A stretch of 64,000 bases of DNA. It comes from Streptomyces sp. PR69 (GTDB lineage Bacteria > Actinomycetota > Actinomycetes > Streptomycetales > Streptomycetaceae). The stretch is taken from NCBI RefSeq assembly GCF_026420845.1, contig NZ_JAOWCB010000007.1, positions 124,001 to 188,000 of the forward strand, given 5' to 3'. The notes under the pieces are model-generated. The model was not told the origin of the DNA. It did no database searches and was given only the letters and a program-made list of their open reading frames with translations. Of the stretch, positions 32,324 to 40,362 are shown in pieces. Every line of letters begins with the position of its first letter. Position 1 is the first letter of the stretch. The position numbers were made by a program, and so were the translations under genes.

Positions 32324-33946
32324 TCAGGCGGGGGCGGGCCCGGGCGGCGGGCCCGTTAGTTCGGTGTGGATGGCCGCCCGCAGGCGCAGGGTGGACACCA
32401 GCCGCTGGAAGGCCTCCGCCCAGTAGCCGCCCGCGCCCGGGGACGCTCCTTCCGGTTCGTCCGGTGTGGCCGCCAGCGGCTCCAGGCGGACGGCCGCGGA
32501 GGGGTCCAGACAGCGCTCGGCCAAGCCCATCACACCGCTGAAGCTCCACGGATAGCTCCCGGCGTCGCGTGCGATGTCCAGCGCGTCGACCACCGCCCGG
32601 CCCAGCGGCTCCGCCCACGGCACCGCGCACACCCCGAGCAGCTGGAACGCCTCCGACAGGCCGTGCGCCGCCACGAACCGCGCGACCCACTCCGCCCGCT
32701 CCTCTTCCGCCAGCGCCACCAGCAGCTTCGCCCGCTCGGCCAGGGATATCGTGCCGGGGCCGTCCGCCGGCGGAGAACCGGGCGCGCCCAGCAGCGCCCG
32801 GGACCACTCGGCGTCCCCCTGCCGCACGGCCGCCCGGCACCACGCGGCGTGCAGCTCGTCCCGCCAGCCGTCCGCCACGGGCAGGGCCACCGTCTCCGCG
32901 GCCGAACGCCCGCCCAACCGCTCCCGCCAGACCGACAGCGGCGCGGCTTCCACGAGCTGCCCCAGCCACCAGGAGCGCTCGCCGCGCCCCGAGGGCGGCT
33001 TCACGGTCATGCCGTCGCGCTGCATGTCCGCGTCACACTCGTGCGGAGCCTCCACCGCTATCGCCGCCTGCCCGTCCCGGCCGTCGTGGCACAGGCTGAT
33101 GCAGGAGGCCGCCCGCTGTGCCATGCGACCGGCGAGCGCTGAGCCCGGCAGTGCGGACAGCAGCTCGGCGGCCAGGGCCCTGACGTTCCGGCTCCGGTCG
33201 GACAGGGCCTGCTCCAGGAACGGCTCATCCGCCTGACACAGCCCCGTACGGAGCGAGTCGAGGAACATCAGCCGGTCCTCGGCCCGCTCGGTGGTCCACG
33301 TCGAAGCCAGCAGCTCCCGCGCCGCACCCGCGTCCTGGTCCCGGACCGCCGCGAGCAGAGCGACCCGCTCGGCGAACAGGCCCTCCTCCCACGGCTTTCG
33401 CACCGCATCCGCGTCGGTCACATCGAGCAGTGCCGAGCCGCTGCCCGCGCTGCGCAGCGCGAATCTCCACTCCGCGTTGAGCCCGGCGAGCCACAGCGCG
33501 CGCGGCCCGGCGAAGGCGAGCGACTGCGGCCGCAGGTCCGTGCGCGCCCGCGCCGCGTCCAGCAGAGCGGGCAGCAGCTCCGCCGGGGCCTGATACCCCT
33601 GCGCGTTGGCGGTGGTCAGCCACTGCGGGAGCAGCTCGGTGAGATCGGGCGCGACGCCGCGCCTGCCGCCGCCCGAGGGCGCGCGGTCCGCAAGCAGCTG
33701 GGCCAGGCGGCGGCGAGCTGCCGCGGGCAACGGCGGCCGCGGGTCATGAGGGGCGCGCTCGGGCAGGGGCGCCGCGGGCGCGGGCAGCAGCCCCGCCCTG
33801 CGCCGCACGGTCTGCAGAGCCGCCGCGTCCAGCAGCGCGACCGGCGCGTCCTTGGCGGGCTCGACGGCCGCGGCCGGCACCGCACGGCGGTCGGTGCCGA
33901 GGAGGGCCGAGGTGACGAGATCCTCCCAGAGCGAGGTGTCGGCCAT
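32324..33946 (-). CDS. DUF5691-family protein of the MoxR/VWA cluster
   Basis: This 540-aa protein is largely helical, Ala/Leu/Arg-rich and repeat-like, resembling alpha-solenoid (HEAT-like) scaffolds. No signal peptide or catalytic motif is visible. I assign it to DUF5691 from its MADTSLWEDLVTSALLGTDR start and its partners. ATG 33946 follows a purine-rich GAAAGGGTGG. It is the second gene of a two-gene operon behind the SWIM protein, 83 bp apart, and faces away from the MoxR operon. It may present substrates to the MoxR ATPase; that is inference. Confidence 0.72.
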   Translation of the reverse strand: MADTSLWEDLVTSALLGTDRRAVPAAAVEPAKDAPVALLDAAALQTVRRRAGLLPAPAAPLPERAPHDPRPPLPAAARRRLAQLLADRAPSGGGRRGVAPDLTELLPQWLTTANAQGYQAPAELLPALLDAARARTDLRPQSLAFAGPRALWLAGLNAEWRFALRSAGSGSALLDVTDADAVRKPWEEGLFAERVALLAAVRDQDAGAARELLASTWTTERAEDRLMFLDSLRTGLCQADEPFLEQALSDRSRNVRALAAELLSALPGSALAGRMAQRAASCISLCHDGRDGQAAIAVEAPHECDADMQRDGMTVKPPSGRGERSWWLGQLVEAAPLSVWRERLGGRSAAETVALPVADGWRDELHAAWCRAAVRQGDAEWSRALLGAPGSPPADGPGTISLAERAKLLVALAEEERAEWVARFVAAHGLSEAFQLLGVCAVPWAEPLGRAVVDALDIARDAGSYPWSFSGVMGLAERCLDPSAAVRLEPLAATPDEPEGASPGAGGYWAEAFQRLVSTLRLRAAIHTELTGPPPGPAPA

Positions 33947-34029
33947 GCTGCCACCCTTTCTTCTGCTCTTCTGCTCTTCTGCGTTTCTTGTGCGTTCAGC
34001 TCTTCTGCTTCGGTCGGGTCGCCGCGCCT

Positions 34030-35376
34030 TCAGATCAGCGGAATCGTCCCTGATGTGTCCTCGGACCAGACGGCGATCGGGGAGAAGCCCCGATGGCCCG
34101 CCTCGCCGAACACGGTCACCGGCCGGCCGCCGGACACCGCGGCGAGACGCAGCAGGCCGGGACGGGACAGCGCGTCGGGGGCGACCGGCAGCGCCAGCGC
34201 GCCGTCCGCGTCGGCGAGCTGCCACCCCTCGTCCGCGGGGGCCGGTATGACATCGCCCAGCGTCACCGGCCAGGACTCCAGCCACGGGTCGTCCCGCAGC
34301 GCCCGTCCGTACGCCTCGACCGCTGCGGCGACCGGCGCTCCCGGCGGCCGTCCGCCGTCCTGCACGGGGGCGCCGGCCAGCTCGGTCAGCTCAGCCCGCA
34401 GCTGCCCGGCACCGCCGTACGGAGTCAGCACGGCCTGCACCGTCAGACCCACGGGCAGCGCCAGCTGCGGCGCCCGGCCCGCGGCCCCGAAGGACAGCAG
34501 CAGCGCCGTCCGGCCCGACTCCCGGCCGTGCAGCCAGATGCGGCGCGTGGTGATCCTGCCCTCCGCCGAGTCGTACTGCGCGAGGATCAGCCAGCGGTCC
34601 CGCACCGGCTCGCCCACAGCGGGCGTGGACAGCCCCACCCGGGACCGGACCACCGCCGCCAGCGGCTCGGGCAGCCGGTCGAGGCCCAGCCAGGCCGTAT
34701 TCAGCAGATGCAGCAGCGCGCACTCCTCCAGCAGCCGCACCGGCCAGCCCGCACCCGAGCCGGGAATCGCCCCCAACTCCCGGACCCGCGCCGCCAGCCC
34801 GGGCGCCTGGGCGTCCACCATGCGGGCCGCGGTCTCCTCCCACAGCCCGTAACCCGACTGCTCCGCCGTGGCCAGCCCGGAGCGCAGCAGATCCGCGAGC
34901 CGCTGCTCCAGCTCGCCCGCGCCCGCCGTGATCCGCTCCGCCCGGCGCTCCGCGCGCCGCCGGGACGCCTCCGGATCGGCTGGCTTCCCGCCGCCGCCCC
35001 CACTCTTGCCGTCCCGGTCGGCGGCACGCTGTCTGCGGCCCTCCAGCCACTGCTCGGCCCACTCCGGCGCGGTCGAGTCCCGGACCGCGGTGTCGTCCGA
35101 CGCCCAGAGCAGCAGCAGCCCCAGCGCGTGCTTGCACGGGAACTTACGGCTCGGACAACTGCACTTGTAGGACGGGCCGCCCGCGGTGTCCACGACGGTC
35201 TGATACGGCCTGCTGCCGCTGCCCTTGCACAGGCCCCACACCGCCCCCGAGCCGCTGCAGCCCGCATCCGACCACGGGCCCGGCACGCTCAGCCTGTTTC
35301 CCGCTCTGCGTGAAGCGTCGTCAGGAGCCAGTGCCAGCACCTGTTCCGACGTCCAGCGCACCCCCTGCTGATTCAT
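34030..35376 (-). CDS. SWIM zinc-finger protein of the MoxR/VWA cluster
   Basis: This 448-aa protein has the SWIM motif CxCx6CxH (Cys72, Cys74, Cys81, His83), which binds zinc and usually nucleic acid or protein. The rest has no recognised catalytic site. ATG 35376 is favoured over GTG 35406: it begins MNQQGVRWTSEQVLALAPD and a DNA-damage-type promoter -10 (TACCGT) ends only 7 nt upstream, giving a leaderless mRNA. It heads the operon with DUF5691 and is divergent from the MoxR operon. SWIM plus MoxR plus VWA suggests a damage-related assembly or remodelling role; that is inferred. Confidence 0.82.
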   Translation of the reverse strand: MNQQGVRWTSEQVLALAPDDASRRAGNRLSVPGPWSDAGCSGSGAVWGLCKGSGSRPYQTVVDTAGGPSYKCSCPSRKFPCKHALGLLLLWASDDTAVRDSTAPEWAEQWLEGRRQRAADRDGKSGGGGGKPADPEASRRRAERRAERITAGAGELEQRLADLLRSGLATAEQSGYGLWEETAARMVDAQAPGLAARVRELGAIPGSGAGWPVRLLEECALLHLLNTAWLGLDRLPEPLAAVVRSRVGLSTPAVGEPVRDRWLILAQYDSAEGRITTRRIWLHGRESGRTALLLSFGAAGRAPQLALPVGLTVQAVLTPYGGAGQLRAELTELAGAPVQDGGRPPGAPVAAAVEAYGRALRDDPWLESWPVTLGDVIPAPADEGWQLADADGALALPVAPDALSRPGLLRLAAVSGGRPVTVFGEAGHRGFSPIAVWSEDTSGTIPLI

Positions 35377-35383
35377 GTCGACG

Positions 35384-35406
35384 ACGGTAGGGCCGACCAC
35401 TGACAA
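35384..35406 (-). promoter_or_regulatory. PafBC-type DNA-damage promoter, leftward operon
   Basis: On the minus strand TTGTCAGTG-N8-TACCGT matches the RecA-NDp consensus (TTGTCRGTG-N8-TAnnnT) at every defined base and spacing. It is 7 nt from the SWIM ATG. The 13-bp arm CGATTGTCAGTGG is repeated in mirror image at 35442-35454. Confidence 0.75.
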
Positions 35407-35444
35407 TCGGCTCTGACCTGCGGCGACGGTTCGTCAGCGATCGA

Positions 35445-35467
35445 TTGTCAGTGGCGTGGTGCACCGT
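35445..35467 (+). promoter_or_regulatory. PafBC-type DNA-damage promoter, rightward operon
   Basis: TTGTCAGTG-N8-CACCGT matches RecA-NDp perfectly at the upstream element; the -10 has C for the first T. It lies 47 nt before the MoxR start and is a mirror copy of the leftward promoter. Confidence 0.65.
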
Positions 35468-35514
35468 GGAGAACGCATCGGCCGAACGGGGCCGAGCGAT
35501 CTTGAGGGGGATCC

Positions 35515-36687
35515 ATGTCTGTGTCCAAAGCCATGTCTGAAACCATGCCTGAAACCACGCCCGAAGGTGCTTGTGACGCGGCGTCCGGCGCATCGGACGC
35601 GTCCGGCGCGGAGGCGCTGCGGCCCCATGCGGAGCAGGCGTTCGCACATGAGCTGGCGGCCCTCGCAGCGGCCGACGACCGGCCGCGTCCGGTCGGCTGG
35701 CGGCTGTCGCCGTGGGCCGTCGCCACCTATCTCCTCGGCGGCGCCCTTCCGGACGGCACCGTGATCACGCCCAAGTACGTGGGGCCGCGGCGGATCGTGG
35801 AGGTCGCCGTCACGACACTCGCCACCGACCGGGCCCTGCTGCTGCTCGGCGTCCCCGGCACCGCGAAGACATGGGTGTCCGAGCATCTCGCGGCGGCCGT
35901 CAGCGGCGACTCGACCTTGCTTGTGCAGGGCACCGCCGGCACCCCGGAAGAGGCCATCCGCTACGGCTGGAACTATGCGCAGCTGCTCGCGCACGGCCCC
36001 AGCCGCGACGCCCTCGTGCCCAGCCCGGTCATGCGCGCCATGGCCGAAGGCATGACCGCGCGCGTCGAGGAGCTCACCCGCATCCCCGCCGACGTCCAGG
36101 ACACCCTGATCACGATCCTGTCCGAGAAGACCCTCCCGGTGCCGGAGCTGGGAGAGGAAGTGCAGGCGGTGCGCGGCTTCAACCTCATCGCCACCGCCAA
36201 TGACCGAGACCGCGGGGTCAACGACCTCTCCAGCGCGCTGCGCCGCCGCTTCAACACGGTCGTGCTGCCGCTGCCCGCCACGGTCGACGACGAAGTCGAC
36301 ATCGTGTCACGGCGCGTGGACCAGATAGGGCGTTCGCTCGACCTGCCGGCCGCGCCCGAGGGGCTTGAGGAGATCCGGCGCGTCGTCACCGTCTTCCGCG
36401 AGCTGCGCGACGGCGTCTCCGCCGACGGCCGCACCAAGGTCAAGTCCCCGTCGGGCACGCTGTCCACGGCCGAGGCGATCTCCGTGGTCACCGGCGGTCT
36501 CGCTCTCGCGGCGCACTTCGGCGACGGAGTGCTGAGGCCCGCCGACGTGGCCGCGGGCATCCTCGGCGCGGTGGTGCGCGACCCGGCCGCGGACCGGGTG
36601 ATCTGGCAGGAGTATCTGGAGACCGTCGTGCGTGAGCGGGACGGCTGGAAGGACTTCTACCGCGCCTGCCGCGAGGTGAGCGCATGA
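35515..36687 (+). CDS. MoxR-type AAA+ ATPase
   Basis: This 390-aa AAA+ ATPase probably acts as a chaperone that loads or remodels a VWA-protein partner. Walker A is GVPGTAKT (~112-119). The Walker B position reads VEEL rather than the usual DE. The Sensor-1 region is ATANDRDRG and the arginine finger region SSALRRRFN. ATG 35515 has GAGGGGGA 5 nt upstream. A Ser/Asp-rich N-terminal tail of ~35 residues precedes the fold. Its stop overlaps the DUF5682 start by 4 nt, and a VWA gene follows. Whether the altered Walker B still supports ATP hydrolysis is untested. Confidence 0.9.
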   Translation: MSVSKAMSETMPETTPEGACDAASGASDASGAEALRPHAEQAFAHELAALAAADDRPRPVGWRLSPWAVATYLLGGALPDGTVITPKYVGPRRIVEVAVTTLATDRALLLLGVPGTAKTWVSEHLAAAVSGDSTLLVQGTAGTPEEAIRYGWNYAQLLAHGPSRDALVPSPVMRAMAEGMTARVEELTRIPADVQDTLITILSEKTLPVPELGEEVQAVRGFNLIATANDRDRGVNDLSSALRRRFNTVVLPLPATVDDEVDIVSRRVDQIGRSLDLPAAPEGLEEIRRVVTVFRELRDGVSADGRTKVKSPSGTLSTAEAISVVTGGLALAAHFGDGVLRPADVAAGILGAVVRDPAADRVIWQEYLETVVRERDGWKDFYRACREVSA

Positions 36688-39116
36688 CACATCCGCTGCT
36701 CCTCGGCGTCCGCCACCACGGGCCCGGCTCGGCGCGGGCGGTCCGGGCCGCACTGGACACGGCCTCGCCCACGGCCGTTCTGATCGAGGGCCCGCCCGAG
36801 GCGGACGGACTGCTGCCGCTGGCCGCCGACGACGGCATGCGGCCGCCGGTCGCGCTGCTCGCCCATGCGGCCGACGACCCGGGGCGGGCGGCGTTCTGGC
36901 CGTTCGCCGAGTTCTCGCCGGAGTGGACGGCGATCCGGTGGGCGCTGGCGCACGACGTCCCGGTGCGGTTCATCGACCTCCCGGCGGCTCACTCGCTGGC
37001 GATGCGGCAGGAGGAGACCACAGGGGAGCCGGAGGAGCCGGGGGAGCAGGAAGGCGCCGCAGAGGAATCGCAGCAGGCCGCGGAGGAGGACGCCGCGAAG
37101 AAGGACGCCGCGAGGGACGCCGCACCTGAAGGCGGCGGAGAGGAGACGGACATCCACGGCGCCGCGCAGGCCATGCGGGTGGACCCCATCGGCGCGCTCG
37201 CCCAGGCCGCCGGATACGACGACCCGGAGCGCTGGTGGGAGGACGTCGTCGAGCACCGCACGGCGCGCGAGGACGACGACTCCCACGCCCCGTTCGCCGC
37301 CGTCGCCGAGGCGATGGCCGCGCTGCGCGAGACATACGGCCACGGCGGGCAGCAGAGCGACCTCGTACGCGAGGCGCATATGCGGCTCAAACTCCGGGCG
37401 GCGCGCAAGGAGTTCGGGGACGCCGTCGCCGTGGTCTGCGGGGCCTGGCATGTGCCCGCGCTCGCCCGGAAGACCACGATGGCCGCCGACCGGGCGCTCC
37501 TCAAGGGACTCCCCAAGGTCAAGGCCGAGATGACCTGGGTGCCCTGGACCCACCGCCGCCTCTCCCGGCACACCGGCTACGGCGCGGGCATCGACTCGCC
37601 CGGCTGGTACGCGCATCTGTTCAACGCCCCCGACCTGCCCGTCGAACGCTGGATGACCAAGGTCGCCGGACTGCTCCGCGACGAGGACCACATGGTCTCC
37701 TCCGCCCATGTCATCGAGGCGGTGCGCCTCGCGGGGACGCTCGCCGCCATGCGCGGACGCCCCCTCGCCGGTCTGACCGAGACGACCGACGCCATAAGAG
37801 CCGTGATGTGCGAAGGCTCCGATGTGCCGCTCGACCTCGTCCGGGACCGGCTCGTCGTCGGAGACGTGCTCGGGGAGGTCCCTGACACAGCCCCCGCCGT
37901 CCCGCTCCAGCGCGATCTGGCCCGGCAGCAGCGCAGCCTGCGCCTCAAACCCGAGGCGCTGGAACGCGAGGCGGAGCTCGATCTGCGCAAGGAGACCGAC
38001 GCCGCCAAGAGCCGGCTGCTGCACCGGCTGCGACTGCTCGGCATCCGCTGGGGCGAGCCGTCCGCCGGGCGGCAGGGCACGGGCACCTTCCGGGAGACCT
38101 GGCGGCTGCGCTGGGATCCGGAGCTGGCCGTGCGGGTCGCGGAGGCCGGGGTCTGGGGCACCACCGTGCTCTCCGCGGCCACCGCCAAGGCGGAGTCACA
38201 GGCCGTGGAGGCGGCCGCGCTCGCCGATGTCACTGCCCTCGCCGAGCAGTGTCTGTTGGCCGGGCTGCCGGACGCGCTGCCCGTGGTGATGCGGGCTCTC
38301 GCCGACCGCGCCGCCCTCGACGCGGACGTCGGCCATCTCGCCCAGGCGCTGCCCGCGCTGGTCCGCTCGCTGCGGTACGGGGATGTGCGGTCCACGGACA
38401 CCGCCGCGCTCGGGGAGGTCGCCACCGGGCTCGCCGAGCGGATATGCGTCGGCCTGCCGCCCGCGTGCGCGGGGCTCGACGCGGACGGCGCGGCCGCGAT
38501 GCGCACCCATCTGGACGCCGTGCACGGCGCGATCGGGCTGCTGCCGGACGCCGGGGAGCTGCCCGTCCGCTGGACCTCGGTGCTCCGCCGCCTCGCCGAC
38601 CGCGACACGGCGCCCGGAGTCCTCCGCGGCCGCGCCGTACGGCTGCTGCTCGACGACCGGCGACTGGAGGACGACGAGGCAGCGCGGCTGATGGCGCTCG
38701 CCCTCTCCGCCGGAACACCGCCCGCCGACGCGGCCGCCTGGATCGAGGGCTTCGTCGGCGGAGCCTCCGGCGGCGGCATGCTCCTGATCCATGACGAGCG
38801 GCTGCTGGGGCTGGTCGACGCCTGGCTCACCGGGGTGCCCGCGGAGGCGTTCACGGATGTGCTTCCGCTGCTGCGCCGCACCTTCTCGGCATACGAGCCC
38901 GGGGTGCGCCGCACGCTGGGCGAGCTGGTGCGGCGCGGCGCCCCTGGCGCGGCCGGGGGAGGGGCCGCGCCGCGCTCCGGGGCCCTCACGCCCGGCTTCG
39001 GCCACGGTCTCGACGGGACACGGGCGGACGCGGTCCTGCCGGTGGTGCGTCTGCTGCTCGGGACCGCGGGGGCCGAGGGCCCGCACGAACACGACCTGAC
39101 GACCTTGCGGGGGTGA
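36684..39116 (+). CDS. DUF5682-family protein of the MoxR/VWA cluster
   Basis: This 810-aa cytoplasmic protein begins LLLGVRHHGPGSARAV, with a short His-Gly motif near the N-terminus. Residues ~112-155 are an acidic, Glu/Ala/Lys-rich insertion of low complexity. The rest is helix-rich and ends in a Pro/Gly tail. No enzyme signature is secure. The RHHGPGS start recalls esterase-like folds in distant relatives, a weak hint only. It overlaps the MoxR gene (ATGA) and is 4 bp before the VWA gene, so the three are co-translated and probably form one complex. Confidence 0.78.
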   Translation: MTHPLLLGVRHHGPGSARAVRAALDTASPTAVLIEGPPEADGLLPLAADDGMRPPVALLAHAADDPGRAAFWPFAEFSPEWTAIRWALAHDVPVRFIDLPAAHSLAMRQEETTGEPEEPGEQEGAAEESQQAAEEDAAKKDAARDAAPEGGGEETDIHGAAQAMRVDPIGALAQAAGYDDPERWWEDVVEHRTAREDDDSHAPFAAVAEAMAALRETYGHGGQQSDLVREAHMRLKLRAARKEFGDAVAVVCGAWHVPALARKTTMAADRALLKGLPKVKAEMTWVPWTHRRLSRHTGYGAGIDSPGWYAHLFNAPDLPVERWMTKVAGLLRDEDHMVSSAHVIEAVRLAGTLAAMRGRPLAGLTETTDAIRAVMCEGSDVPLDLVRDRLVVGDVLGEVPDTAPAVPLQRDLARQQRSLRLKPEALEREAELDLRKETDAAKSRLLHRLRLLGIRWGEPSAGRQGTGTFRETWRLRWDPELAVRVAEAGVWGTTVLSAATAKAESQAVEAAALADVTALAEQCLLAGLPDALPVVMRALADRAALDADVGHLAQALPALVRSLRYGDVRSTDTAALGEVATGLAERICVGLPPACAGLDADGAAAMRTHLDAVHGAIGLLPDAGELPVRWTSVLRRLADRDTAPGVLRGRAVRLLLDDRRLEDDEAARLMALALSAGTPPADAAAWIEGFVGGASGGGMLLIHDERLLGLVDAWLTGVPAEAFTDVLPLLRRTFSAYEPGVRRTLGELVRRGAPGAAGGGAAPRSGALTPGFGHGLDGTRADAVLPVVRLLLGTAGAEGPHEHDLTTLRG

Positions 39117-39120
39117 CTCG

Positions 39121-40362
39121 ATGACCACAGCGGACAAGACAGCAACGGAAGCAGCCGCGGAAGCAGCCAAGGAGGCGGTCGCGGAGGGGGCCGCGGAAGC
39201 GGGCGGAGACGAGCGGCTGCGGCGCTGGCGGCTCGTCCTCGGGGGCGGCGGCGCCGACGGCACGAACTGCGCGCTCACCGGCAGGGACGCGGCCATGGAC
39301 GGTGCGCTCACCGCGCTCTACGGCGGAGCGGCGGACAGCCGTGGCCGCGGCCGTGGGCGTGACCGCTCCGCGGGGCTGGGGGCGTCCGCGCCCTCCGTGG
39401 CCCGCTGGCTGGGGGACATCCGCAGCTATTTCCCCAGCTCTGTCGTCCAGGTGATGCAGCGGGACGCGATCGACCGGCTCGGACTGTCCACACTGCTTCT
39501 GGAGCCGGAGATGCTGGAGGCCGTCGAGGCCGATGTGTATCTGGTCGGCACGCTGCTCTCCCTCAACAAGGCCATGCCGGAGACGACGAAGGAGACCGCA
39601 AGGGCGGTGGTGCGCAAGGTCGTCGACCAACTGGAGAAGAAGCTCGCCACACGCACCCGCTCCACGCTCACGGGGGCGCTGGACCGCTCGGCCAGGGTCA
39701 GCCGGCCCCGGCACCGGGACATCGACTGGCACCGCACCATCAGGGCCAACCTCAAGAACTATCTGCCCGAGTTCCACACGGTCGTGCCGGAGCGCCTCAT
39801 CGGATACGGGCGGGCGTCGCAGTCGGTGAAGAAGGAAGTGGTGCTCTGCATCGACCAGTCCGGGTCGATGGCCGCCTCCGTCGTCTACGCCTCGGTGTTC
39901 GGCGCGGTCCTTTCCTCCATGCGGTCCATCAGCACCCGGCTGGTCGTCTTCGACACCTCCGTCGTCGACCTCACCGACCAGCTGGACGACCCGGTCGACG
40001 TCCTCTTCGGCACACAGCTCGGCGGCGGCACCGACATCAACAGGGCCTTGGCGTACTGCCAGTCGCAGATCACCCGCCCCGCCGACACCGTCGTCGTTCT
40101 CATCAGCGATCTGTACGAAGGGGGGATTCGGGACGAGATGCTGAAGCGGGTCGCGGCGATGAAGGCCTCGGGGGTGCAGTTCGTCGCGCTGCTCGCACTC
40201 TCCGACGAAGGCACGCCGGCATACGACCGCGAGCACGCGGCGGCGCTCGCCGCGCTGGGCGCGCCCGCGTTCGCCTGTACGCCGGATCTGTTCCCGGAGG
40301 TGATGGCGGCGGCGATCGAGAAACGCCCCCTGCCCATACCGGACATGGCACCGCATCGGTAA
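39121..40362 (+). CDS. VWA-domain (CoxE-like) protein of the MoxR/VWA cluster
   Basis: This 413-aa protein has a C-terminal von Willebrand A domain with all metal-ion site elements: DQSGS (~245), GGGTD (~302) and VLISDLYEGG (~325). An Ala/Glu-rich N-terminus (~30 residues) and a middle helical region precede it. No membrane segment is present, so it is cytosolic. MoxR ATPases typically act with VWA proteins to insert metals or remodel partners. Operon position 4 bp after DUF5682 supports a complex with MoxR and DUF5682. Confidence 0.9.
   Translation: MTTADKTATEAAAEAAKEAVAEGAAEAGGDERLRRWRLVLGGGGADGTNCALTGRDAAMDGALTALYGGAADSRGRGRGRDRSAGLGASAPSVARWLGDIRSYFPSSVVQVMQRDAIDRLGLSTLLLEPEMLEAVEADVYLVGTLLSLNKAMPETTKETARAVVRKVVDQLEKKLATRTRSTLTGALDRSARVSRPRHRDIDWHRTIRANLKNYLPEFHTVVPERLIGYGRASQSVKKEVVLCIDQSGSMAASVVYASVFGAVLSSMRSISTRLVVFDTSVVDLTDQLDDPVDVLFGTQLGGGTDINRALAYCQSQITRPADTVVVLISDLYEGGIRDEMLKRVAAMKASGVQFVALLALSDEGTPAYDREHAAALAALGAPAFACTPDLFPEVMAAAIEKRPLPIPDMAPHR

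Follow-up and report, generated by a model that had tools for sequence, protein, structure and literature searches.

Mirror-image RecA-NDp-like promoters at a Streptomyces five-gene locus orthologous to the Deinococcus ddrTUVWX operon

A divided locus and its mirror-image promoters

What is a five-gene locus for when its two halves are transcribed away from each other out of one short gap, and what switches it on? The locus in question occupies positions 32324 to 40362 of a 64,000-nucleotide (nt) stretch of the genome of Streptomyces sp. PR69 (contig NZ_JAOWCB010000007.1), the whole of which we call the window. Its left half encodes a SWIM zinc-finger protein and a DUF5691 protein, and its right half a MoxR AAA+ ATPase, a DUF5682 protein and a VWA-domain protein. 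The best explanation, which we consider probable, is that the locus represents the Streptomyces form of ddrTUVWX, a DNA-damage operon of Deinococcus, split in two and served by a mirror-image pair of PafBC-type promoters, with a remodeller proposed as its product. The gene set itself is known from Deinococcus; the version with mirror promoters in Streptomyces is new as far as the literature searched shows. The features of the locus are as follows.

32324–33946, minus strand: DUF5691 protein, DdrU-like, 540 amino acids (aa), ATG at 33946 (PF18944, E 2.9e-171)
34030–35376, minus strand: SWIM zinc-finger protein, DdrT-like, 448 aa (PF04434); predicted leaderless
35384–35406, minus strand: predicted left RecA-NDp promoter, TTGTCAGTG-N8-TACCGT, 12/12, from sequence and conserved in relatives
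35445–35467, plus strand: predicted right RecA-NDp promoter, TTGTCAGTG-N8-CACCGT, 11/12 (C for T), from sequence and conserved in relatives
35515–36687, plus strand: MoxR AAA+ ATPase, DdrV/YehL type, 390 aa, ATG at 35515 (AAA_5 match)
36684–39116, plus strand: DUF5682 protein, DdrW/YehM-like, 810 aa (PF18934, E 1.1e-301)
39121–40362, plus strand: VWA/CoxE protein, DdrX/YehP-like, 413 aa (PF05762, VWA_CoxE, E 2.7e-62)

The gap between the divergent SWIM and MoxR genes spans 35377–35514 (138 bp), and the gene calls and Pfam matches bear out the two outward-facing operons, SWIM-DUF5691 on the minus strand and MoxR-DUF5682-VWA on the plus strand, that had been described in an earlier sequence-only reading of the window. 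Within each half the genes are closely packed: DUF5691 starts 83 nt downstream of the SWIM gene, the MoxR stop and the DUF5682 start overlap (36684/36687), and 4 nt separate DUF5682 from the VWA gene.

The gap holds CGATTGTCAGTGG at 35442–35454 on the plus strand and its exact reverse complement at 35397–35409, so that the perfect inverted copies noticed in that reading are real to the letter. Mycobacterial RecA-NDp promoters, the targets of PafBC, have the form TTGTCRGTG-N8-TAnnnT, and recA is among the genes that they serve. A match on each side had been claimed; this stands in full for the left site (12/12), while the right site scores 11/12, reading CACCGT where TAnnnT is called for and so departing from the full pattern by one base (CA for TA in the -10). 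Across the 64 kb of the window TTGTCRGTG-N8-TANNNT matches once, at the left site, and it has no match in 100 shuffles. The left -10 lies 7 nt from the SWIM ATG (35376), which is consistent with the leaderless SWIM mRNA that had been predicted. The right -10 lies 47 nt from the MoxR ATG, which is preceded by what looks by eye like a purine-rich stretch. Unlike the mycobacterial RecA-NDp promoters, the Streptomyces sites form a mirror pair that would serve two halves of one module. Between them (window 35409–35441) is a short TCTGACCTGC-like element that recurs in many Streptomyces in either orientation and may be an upstream element of one of the promoters.

Control by LexA was also considered and rejected because the gap lacks a LexA-like box: the pattern TCGAAC-N4-GNNCGA had 136 matches in the window at up to two mismatches and none in 35377–35514, although more degenerate boxes would escape this search.

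Conservation of the mirror pair in Streptomycetaceae

Promoter motifs were present at the homologous loci of related genomes. (Streptomyces genomes of the different sample sets used here may overlap.) In a genus sample of 16 genomes, including the source genome, both exact 9-mers lay between SWIM and MoxR in 15, and in the remaining genome the right copy was degenerate. Among 29 Streptomycetaceae loci, 28 scored at least 10/12 on both sides, the exception being Streptacidiphilus (12 on the left, 9 on the right), and an ATG lay 7 nt past the left -10 in all 29. An exact mirror pair with a spacing of 35–65 nt was found in 92 of 150 genus genomes, and the reversed control gave 0 in each of the rows shown; not every one of these sites was confirmed at the SWIM/MoxR locus.

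One of the 15 genomes with both 9-mers (locus L032, genome G173) has a small gene inserted in the gap, lipoprotein-like by eye, and its promoters, with both exact 9-mers intact, are 578 bp apart. A mirror pair of identical RecA-NDp sites with starts 63 nt apart was also seen in another actinobacterial genome (G030:C1:1907155-1907240), possibly at a second divergent damage locus.

Gene order and promoter sites outside Streptomycetaceae

In a sample of the class, a MoxR homologue at ≥72% identity was counted in the match list for 38 of 197 genomes. We surveyed 80 homologous loci, seven of which had no SWIM match and were excluded from the promoter counts. The divergent arrangement occurred at 29 of the 80, all of them in Streptomycetaceae, and at 44 the SWIM gene lay on the MoxR strand. 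Most of these co-directional loci (35/44) keep all five genes on a single strand, arranged SWIM-DUF5691-MoxR-DUF5682-VWA, the Richelia copy being spread out. Of the others, six reach a contig edge, one (L116) shows no DUF5691, and two (L117, from Calothrix, and L144) have no DUF5682 or VWA gene within the flank. Going by record titles, the co-directional form occurs in Actinobacteria, Chloroflexi, Cyanobacteria and Armatimonadota. All five genes are annotated on plasmids of D. taeanensis and R. etli; Hymenobacter and Methylosinus plasmids have the first four with no VWA gene listed, and the Hymenobacter DUF5682 gene is in three pieces.

To these loci we applied a graded promoter score (out of 12) within about 100 nt of the estimated SWIM start, and compared it with control windows. 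A RecA-NDp-like site of ≥9/12 lay ahead of SWIM in 24 of 34 co-directional actinobacterial loci, compared to 6 of 198 controls; at ≥10/12 the figures were 18/34 and 1/198. In a further 20 actinobacterial genomes with the co-directional form, a site of ≥9/12 was found in 11, against 4 of 140 control windows, and a stricter scan of these 20 loci (9-mer with limited single mismatches) placed a site directly before SWIM in two, plus one of unclear position. No site of ≥9/12 was found ahead of SWIM in the 10 copies from Chloroflexi, Cyanobacteria and Armatimonadota (controls 2/53), and simple patterns found no LexA-type boxes beside the SWIM gene of the R. etli and Methylosinus copies. By this scoring, a RecA-NDp-like site stands ahead of SWIM in many, though not all, Actinobacteria beyond Streptomyces. 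The simplest reading is that the Streptomycetaceae inverted the first half of the operon and gained a second copy of the promoter.

Orthology with the Deinococcus ddrTUVWX operon

Parts of PMC5552922 describe Deide_18730–18690 of D. deserti, ddrTUVWX, as a radiation-induced, IrrE-dependent operon of unknown function, with a radiation/desiccation response motif (RDRM) upstream of its first gene; that first gene encodes a SWIM protein and the last a CoxE-like VWA protein. In D. taeanensis the operon has a 78-residue gene between ddrV and ddrW, as parts of PMC9510100 report, and the plasmid record gives the order SWIM, DUF5691, AAA ATPase, 78-aa protein, DUF5682, VWA. The window proteins are 72% (MoxR), 53% (VWA), 44% (DUF5682) and 36% (SWIM) identical to their D. 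taeanensis counterparts, and for DUF5691 the match is 35% over 71 aa only (E 9e-7). In a MoxR tree the window and Deinococcus proteins fell into one 16-row clade (100/100), apart from E. coli YehL; the tree has 24 rows, of DdrV and YehL types only, and carries a long-branch warning between the two groups. Judged by these identities and the tree, the Streptomyces five-gene set is orthologous to ddrTUVWX.

The two systems thus share five orthologous genes with SWIM-DUF5691-MoxR-DUF5682-VWA content, and the D. taeanensis order matches that of the co-directional loci, apart from the extra 78-aa gene, which the Streptomyces locus does not have. They differ in control. In Deinococcus there is one operon, governed by the repressor DdrO and the protease IrrE via the RDRM, whereas in Streptomyces there are two divergent operons with promoters of the PafBC activator type. 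(No RDRM pattern was found before D. taeanensis ddrT, where a degenerate RDRM-like stretch can be made out by eye only.) Because of this orthology, one operon appears to be governed in two phyla by damage regulators that are unrelated to each other, which argues for a role of its products in the DNA-damage response.

The claim that the five-gene set has no described function therefore needs correcting in one respect: the set has been described, as ddrTUVWX. It holds in the other, as no molecular function for ddrTUVWX or for the related E. coli genes yehLMPQ was found in the literature searched, nor were any papers found there on DUF5682, DUF5691, PF18934 or PF18944.

A putative PafBC regulon in Streptomyces

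Does the source genome have a damage regulon to which the locus could belong? In its 6.57 Mb (104 contigs), the pattern TTGTCRGTG-N7..9-NANNNT occurred at 36 sites, compared to 3 for the backwards pattern. The downstream reading covered 30 of the 36; frames were picked as the longest available, and some of those listed are clearly spurious. Ten of the 30 were picked by eye as repair-like for a family scan, so the resulting rate is biased: nine of the ten gave matches, to RecA, RuvC, the DnaX clamp-loader ATPase, MgsA/RarA, a Y-family polymerase, an Lhr-type helicase, a topoisomerase IV/gyrase A subunit, a RecD2-type HHH domain and an exonuclease, and the tenth had no family match. Strict TAnnnT sites made up 13 of the 30, with a repair or replication family from that scan at 5 of the 13. 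The picked start codon lay 7 nt past the -10 at 6 of the 30 sites, as it does for SWIM, and this same arrangement of motif and start codon was found ahead of recA, dnaX, rarA and the Y-family polymerase gene. Two adjacent WYL genes (at G000:C47; the genome has five WYL matches) are PafB-/PafC-like, with a PafA-like gene nearby by eye. In 60 class genomes taken together, sites of the strict pattern numbered 268 and those of the reversed control 2 (hand sums), with counts varying widely between genomes. Together with the conservation of the promoters, this regulon context and the PafB-/PafC-like genes support the earlier proposal that both operons share control by DNA damage, and we consider it very probable that this control would run through PafBC.

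Several findings weigh against this explanation, and some of them fit a different one, namely that a general sigma factor or some other regulator uses these promoters, which would only look like RecA-NDp, and that the module is not damage-controlled. A motif match by itself is no proof. At the right site, the -10 reads CAnnnT in place of TAnnnT in 29/29 divergent Streptomycetaceae relatives. Of the 150 genus genomes, 58 lack the exact pair at the set spacing, a count of letters and not of module presence. Among co-directional actinobacterial copies the exact 9-mer occurs in only 5/34, and the score stays below 9 in 10/34 and, in the further sample, in 9/20. According to parts of PMC9380542, an initial search suggested a lack of conservation of the PafBC motif of M. 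smegmatis in S. venezuelae. Lastly, the table of most-induced genes in PMC5552922 lists four of the five ddrTUVWX genes, Deide_18700 being missing from it.

Some of these points have answers. As the CA start is found in all 29 loci, we read the right -10 as a stable variant. The motif counts speak against a genus-wide absence, the sampled genomes being other than S. venezuelae itself. Against the different explanation, the same motif, with its start codon 7 nt past the -10, precedes recA, dnaX, rarA and the polymerase gene in a genome with PafB- and PafC-like genes, and in Deinococcus the orthologous operon responds to damage through a different route; we consider that explanation quite improbable. 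At the level of sequence, these data support a PafBC regulon in Streptomyces, a matter that PMC9380542 had not settled.

Two further sites of this genome scored 12/12. One (L012, G000:C16:64728-64750) lies ahead of a gene for a protein of WGR plus PQQ/beta-propeller type, with an in-frame GTG 7 nt past the -10, and its product is a further candidate member of the damage regulon. Seven nt past the other (L027, G000:C44:26156-26178) begins a protein in which no Pfam family was found; the end of the locus truncates it, so that its length is 497 aa or more.

Protein models and a proposed mechanism

What might the five proteins do? The MoxR ATPase had been singled out for having VEEL where Walker B is expected. 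The letters are as described, yet they are no anomaly: because the stretch R[VFIL]EE[LIVM][TS]R occurs in 80/80 MoxR homologues and in 24/24 rows of the tree, E. coli YehL included, the Asp-to-Glu change is a family trait, and going by these alignments VEEL is a hallmark of this MoxR family and not a peculiarity of the window protein. Only the Mg-binding Asp is changed to Glu; the catalytic Glu is retained. In the VWA protein, the metal ion-dependent adhesion site (MIDAS) motif DxSGS is present by eye.

The AlphaFold model of the SWIM protein (pLDDT 91.7) resembles ZSWIM8 in its N-terminal part (Z 8.5, 107 residues), and its residues 250–442 resemble tandem OB-fold proteins such as RPA70 (Z 5.9, 171 residues) and M. 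smegmatis SSBb (Z 7.1). Many other proteins that are OB-fold nucleic-acid binders by title also matched, HIN domains (Z 5.6 to 6.7) and SOSS1 (Z 6.9) among them; Z values of this order can arise by chance. From the model, the SWIM protein may bind single-stranded DNA (ssDNA). Counting against this, the OB-type matches are middling throughout (Z 5.5 to 7.2) and Foldseek gave none at E <1e-3.

The DUF5682 model (pLDDT 85.6) has an N-terminal alpha/beta domain followed by a C-terminal alpha-solenoid. The N-terminal domain has invariant R10-H11-H12, E35 and H256 in 41 sequences. Its GxxH...E...GxxH motifs suggested an enzyme of the TraB/PrgY or EreA kind, for which hhalign gave no support, its probabilities staying at control level: 0.5% and 0.3% against nine EreA-type proteins and E. 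coli YbaP, from shallow alignments, compared to 0.2 to 1.2% for three unrelated control proteins. This, too, weighs against the explanation proposed here. The TraB family PF01963 had no match in any of 60 class genomes. Helical-repeat proteins similar to the solenoid took up the fold search, which listed no TraB or EreA structures; this excludes nothing for the N-terminal domain.

A precedent for a MoxR/VWA motor is NorQ/NorD (parts of PMC9976466), which likewise pairs a MoxR AAA+ protein with a VWA MIDAS partner. Unlike NorQ, the window MoxR belongs to a different group and has an EE Walker B, and the locus adds SWIM, DUF5691 and DUF5682 proteins. For the window locus we infer induction, complex formation, ssDNA binding, a client and catalysis. 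In mycobacteria PafBC is activated by ssDNA (parts of PMC11804915); in Streptomyces ssDNA would activate PafBC on RNA polymerase and both halves would be switched on together. Each half has its own mirror PafBC-type promoter, and therefore one signal should induce both. A MoxR hexamer and its VWA partner would make up an ATP-driven remodeller, whose MIDAS site, by analogy with NorQ/NorD, would hold the client. Recruitment of the remodeller to nucleic acid, probably ssDNA, would fall to the SWIM protein with its zinc finger and two OB-like domains. The solenoid of DUF5682 could act with DUF5691 as a scaffold, and the His/Glu pocket of DUF5682 could be an enzyme matured by the motor, or a client site. 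In this exact form the mechanism is doubtful.

The MoxR/VWA core admits two other readings. Pairs of this kind are known maturation factors (NorQD, CbbQO, CoxD; parts of PMC9976466 and PMC3893208), and the locus could encode a chaperone for maturing a metal cofactor or an enzyme, with DUF5682 as client and damage control serving a metal-dependent repair enzyme. The alpha/beta domain of DUF5682 with its invariant R-H-H, E and H suits such a client, but DUF5682 matched no known enzyme family, and a maturation chaperone leaves the SWIM zinc finger and the OB-like features unexplained; we consider this reading unlikely.

A MoxR and VWA core is also found in biological-conflict systems of the MoxR-vWA ternary kind, so the module could serve phage defence, with DNA damage as a signal of infection. 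Its spread is patchy (8 of 119 phylum genomes have DUF5682), 40 plasmid records carry MoxR homologues at E 1e-30 (26 at <60% identity), and in one faecal 'Bacteriophage sp.' record (MT835988.1:12858-13853) there is a MoxR homologue that shares 54% identity with that of the window. However, the bpMoxR match is weak, its 22.8 bits falling short of the cut-off of 27, no propeller family was found in the VWA protein, gene order is largely constant across phyla, and a MoxR homologue at E <1e-200 was present in 15/15 same-genus genomes, as expected of a core gene. A defence system was rejected because none of the five proteins matched a PADLOC family at E 1e-3, and as an explanation it is improbable. 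The paper on MoxR-vWA ternary systems (PMC7159879) does not name SWIM, YehL or YehM in its main text, the part of that source consulted.

A sister yeh-type module

Returning to the main explanation, we compared the locus with E. coli yehL-M-P-Q, which encode MoxR, DUF5682, VWA and SWIM proteins downstream of the DUF4132 gene yehI. These four components are common to both. In E. coli, unlike at the window locus, the SWIM gene comes last, a DUF4132 gene (yehI) is nearby and there is no DUF5691; the MoxR proteins are 40% identical, and the tree sets the DdrV clade (100/100) apart from the YehL clade. We know of no DNA-damage control of the E. coli yeh genes.

Streptomyces has this form as well. 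A YehI-like protein (E 1e-40) was found in 9 of 101 Streptomyces genomes, and seven of the nine carry a 12/12 RecA-NDp site ahead of it on the coding strand, at a distance of 56–112 nt from the start of the aligned region. The remaining two differ: the 12/12 site of one points in the opposite direction, and the other has only a 10/12 site, lying farther upstream. Five loci (L090 and L218-L221) hold complete yeh-type modules with yehI, MoxR, DUF5682, VWA and SWIM-like genes, the last recognised by a CxC..CxH pattern, and all five have a perfect RecA-NDp site; L222 and L223 are incomplete.

These comparisons link three orphans: an unannotated Streptomyces locus, a Deinococcus operon induced by radiation, and the yeh genes of E. 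coli. We tentatively suggest, at somewhat less than even chances, that the core of MoxR, DUF5682, VWA and SWIM serves bacteria in general as a DNA-damage machine: a remodeller driven by ATP, with a SWIM/OB protein to bring it to ssDNA. It would have been taken over by at least two unrelated regulators (PafBC in Actinobacteria, DdrO/IrrE in Deinococcus), with the Ddr and Yeh forms both under PafBC in Streptomyces.

The yeh-type sites lie at L090:4874-4961 and, in L209 and L211-L216, near 1400. L090 also has a second, weaker site (10/12) in the opposite direction, toward another gene similar to YehI. The YehI-like protein of L090 has an N-terminal WGR domain, a domain that occurs in PARP proteins; E. 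coli yehF (L091:1475-2299), annotated PF05406 (WGR) and located upstream of yehI/yehLMPQ, echoes it.

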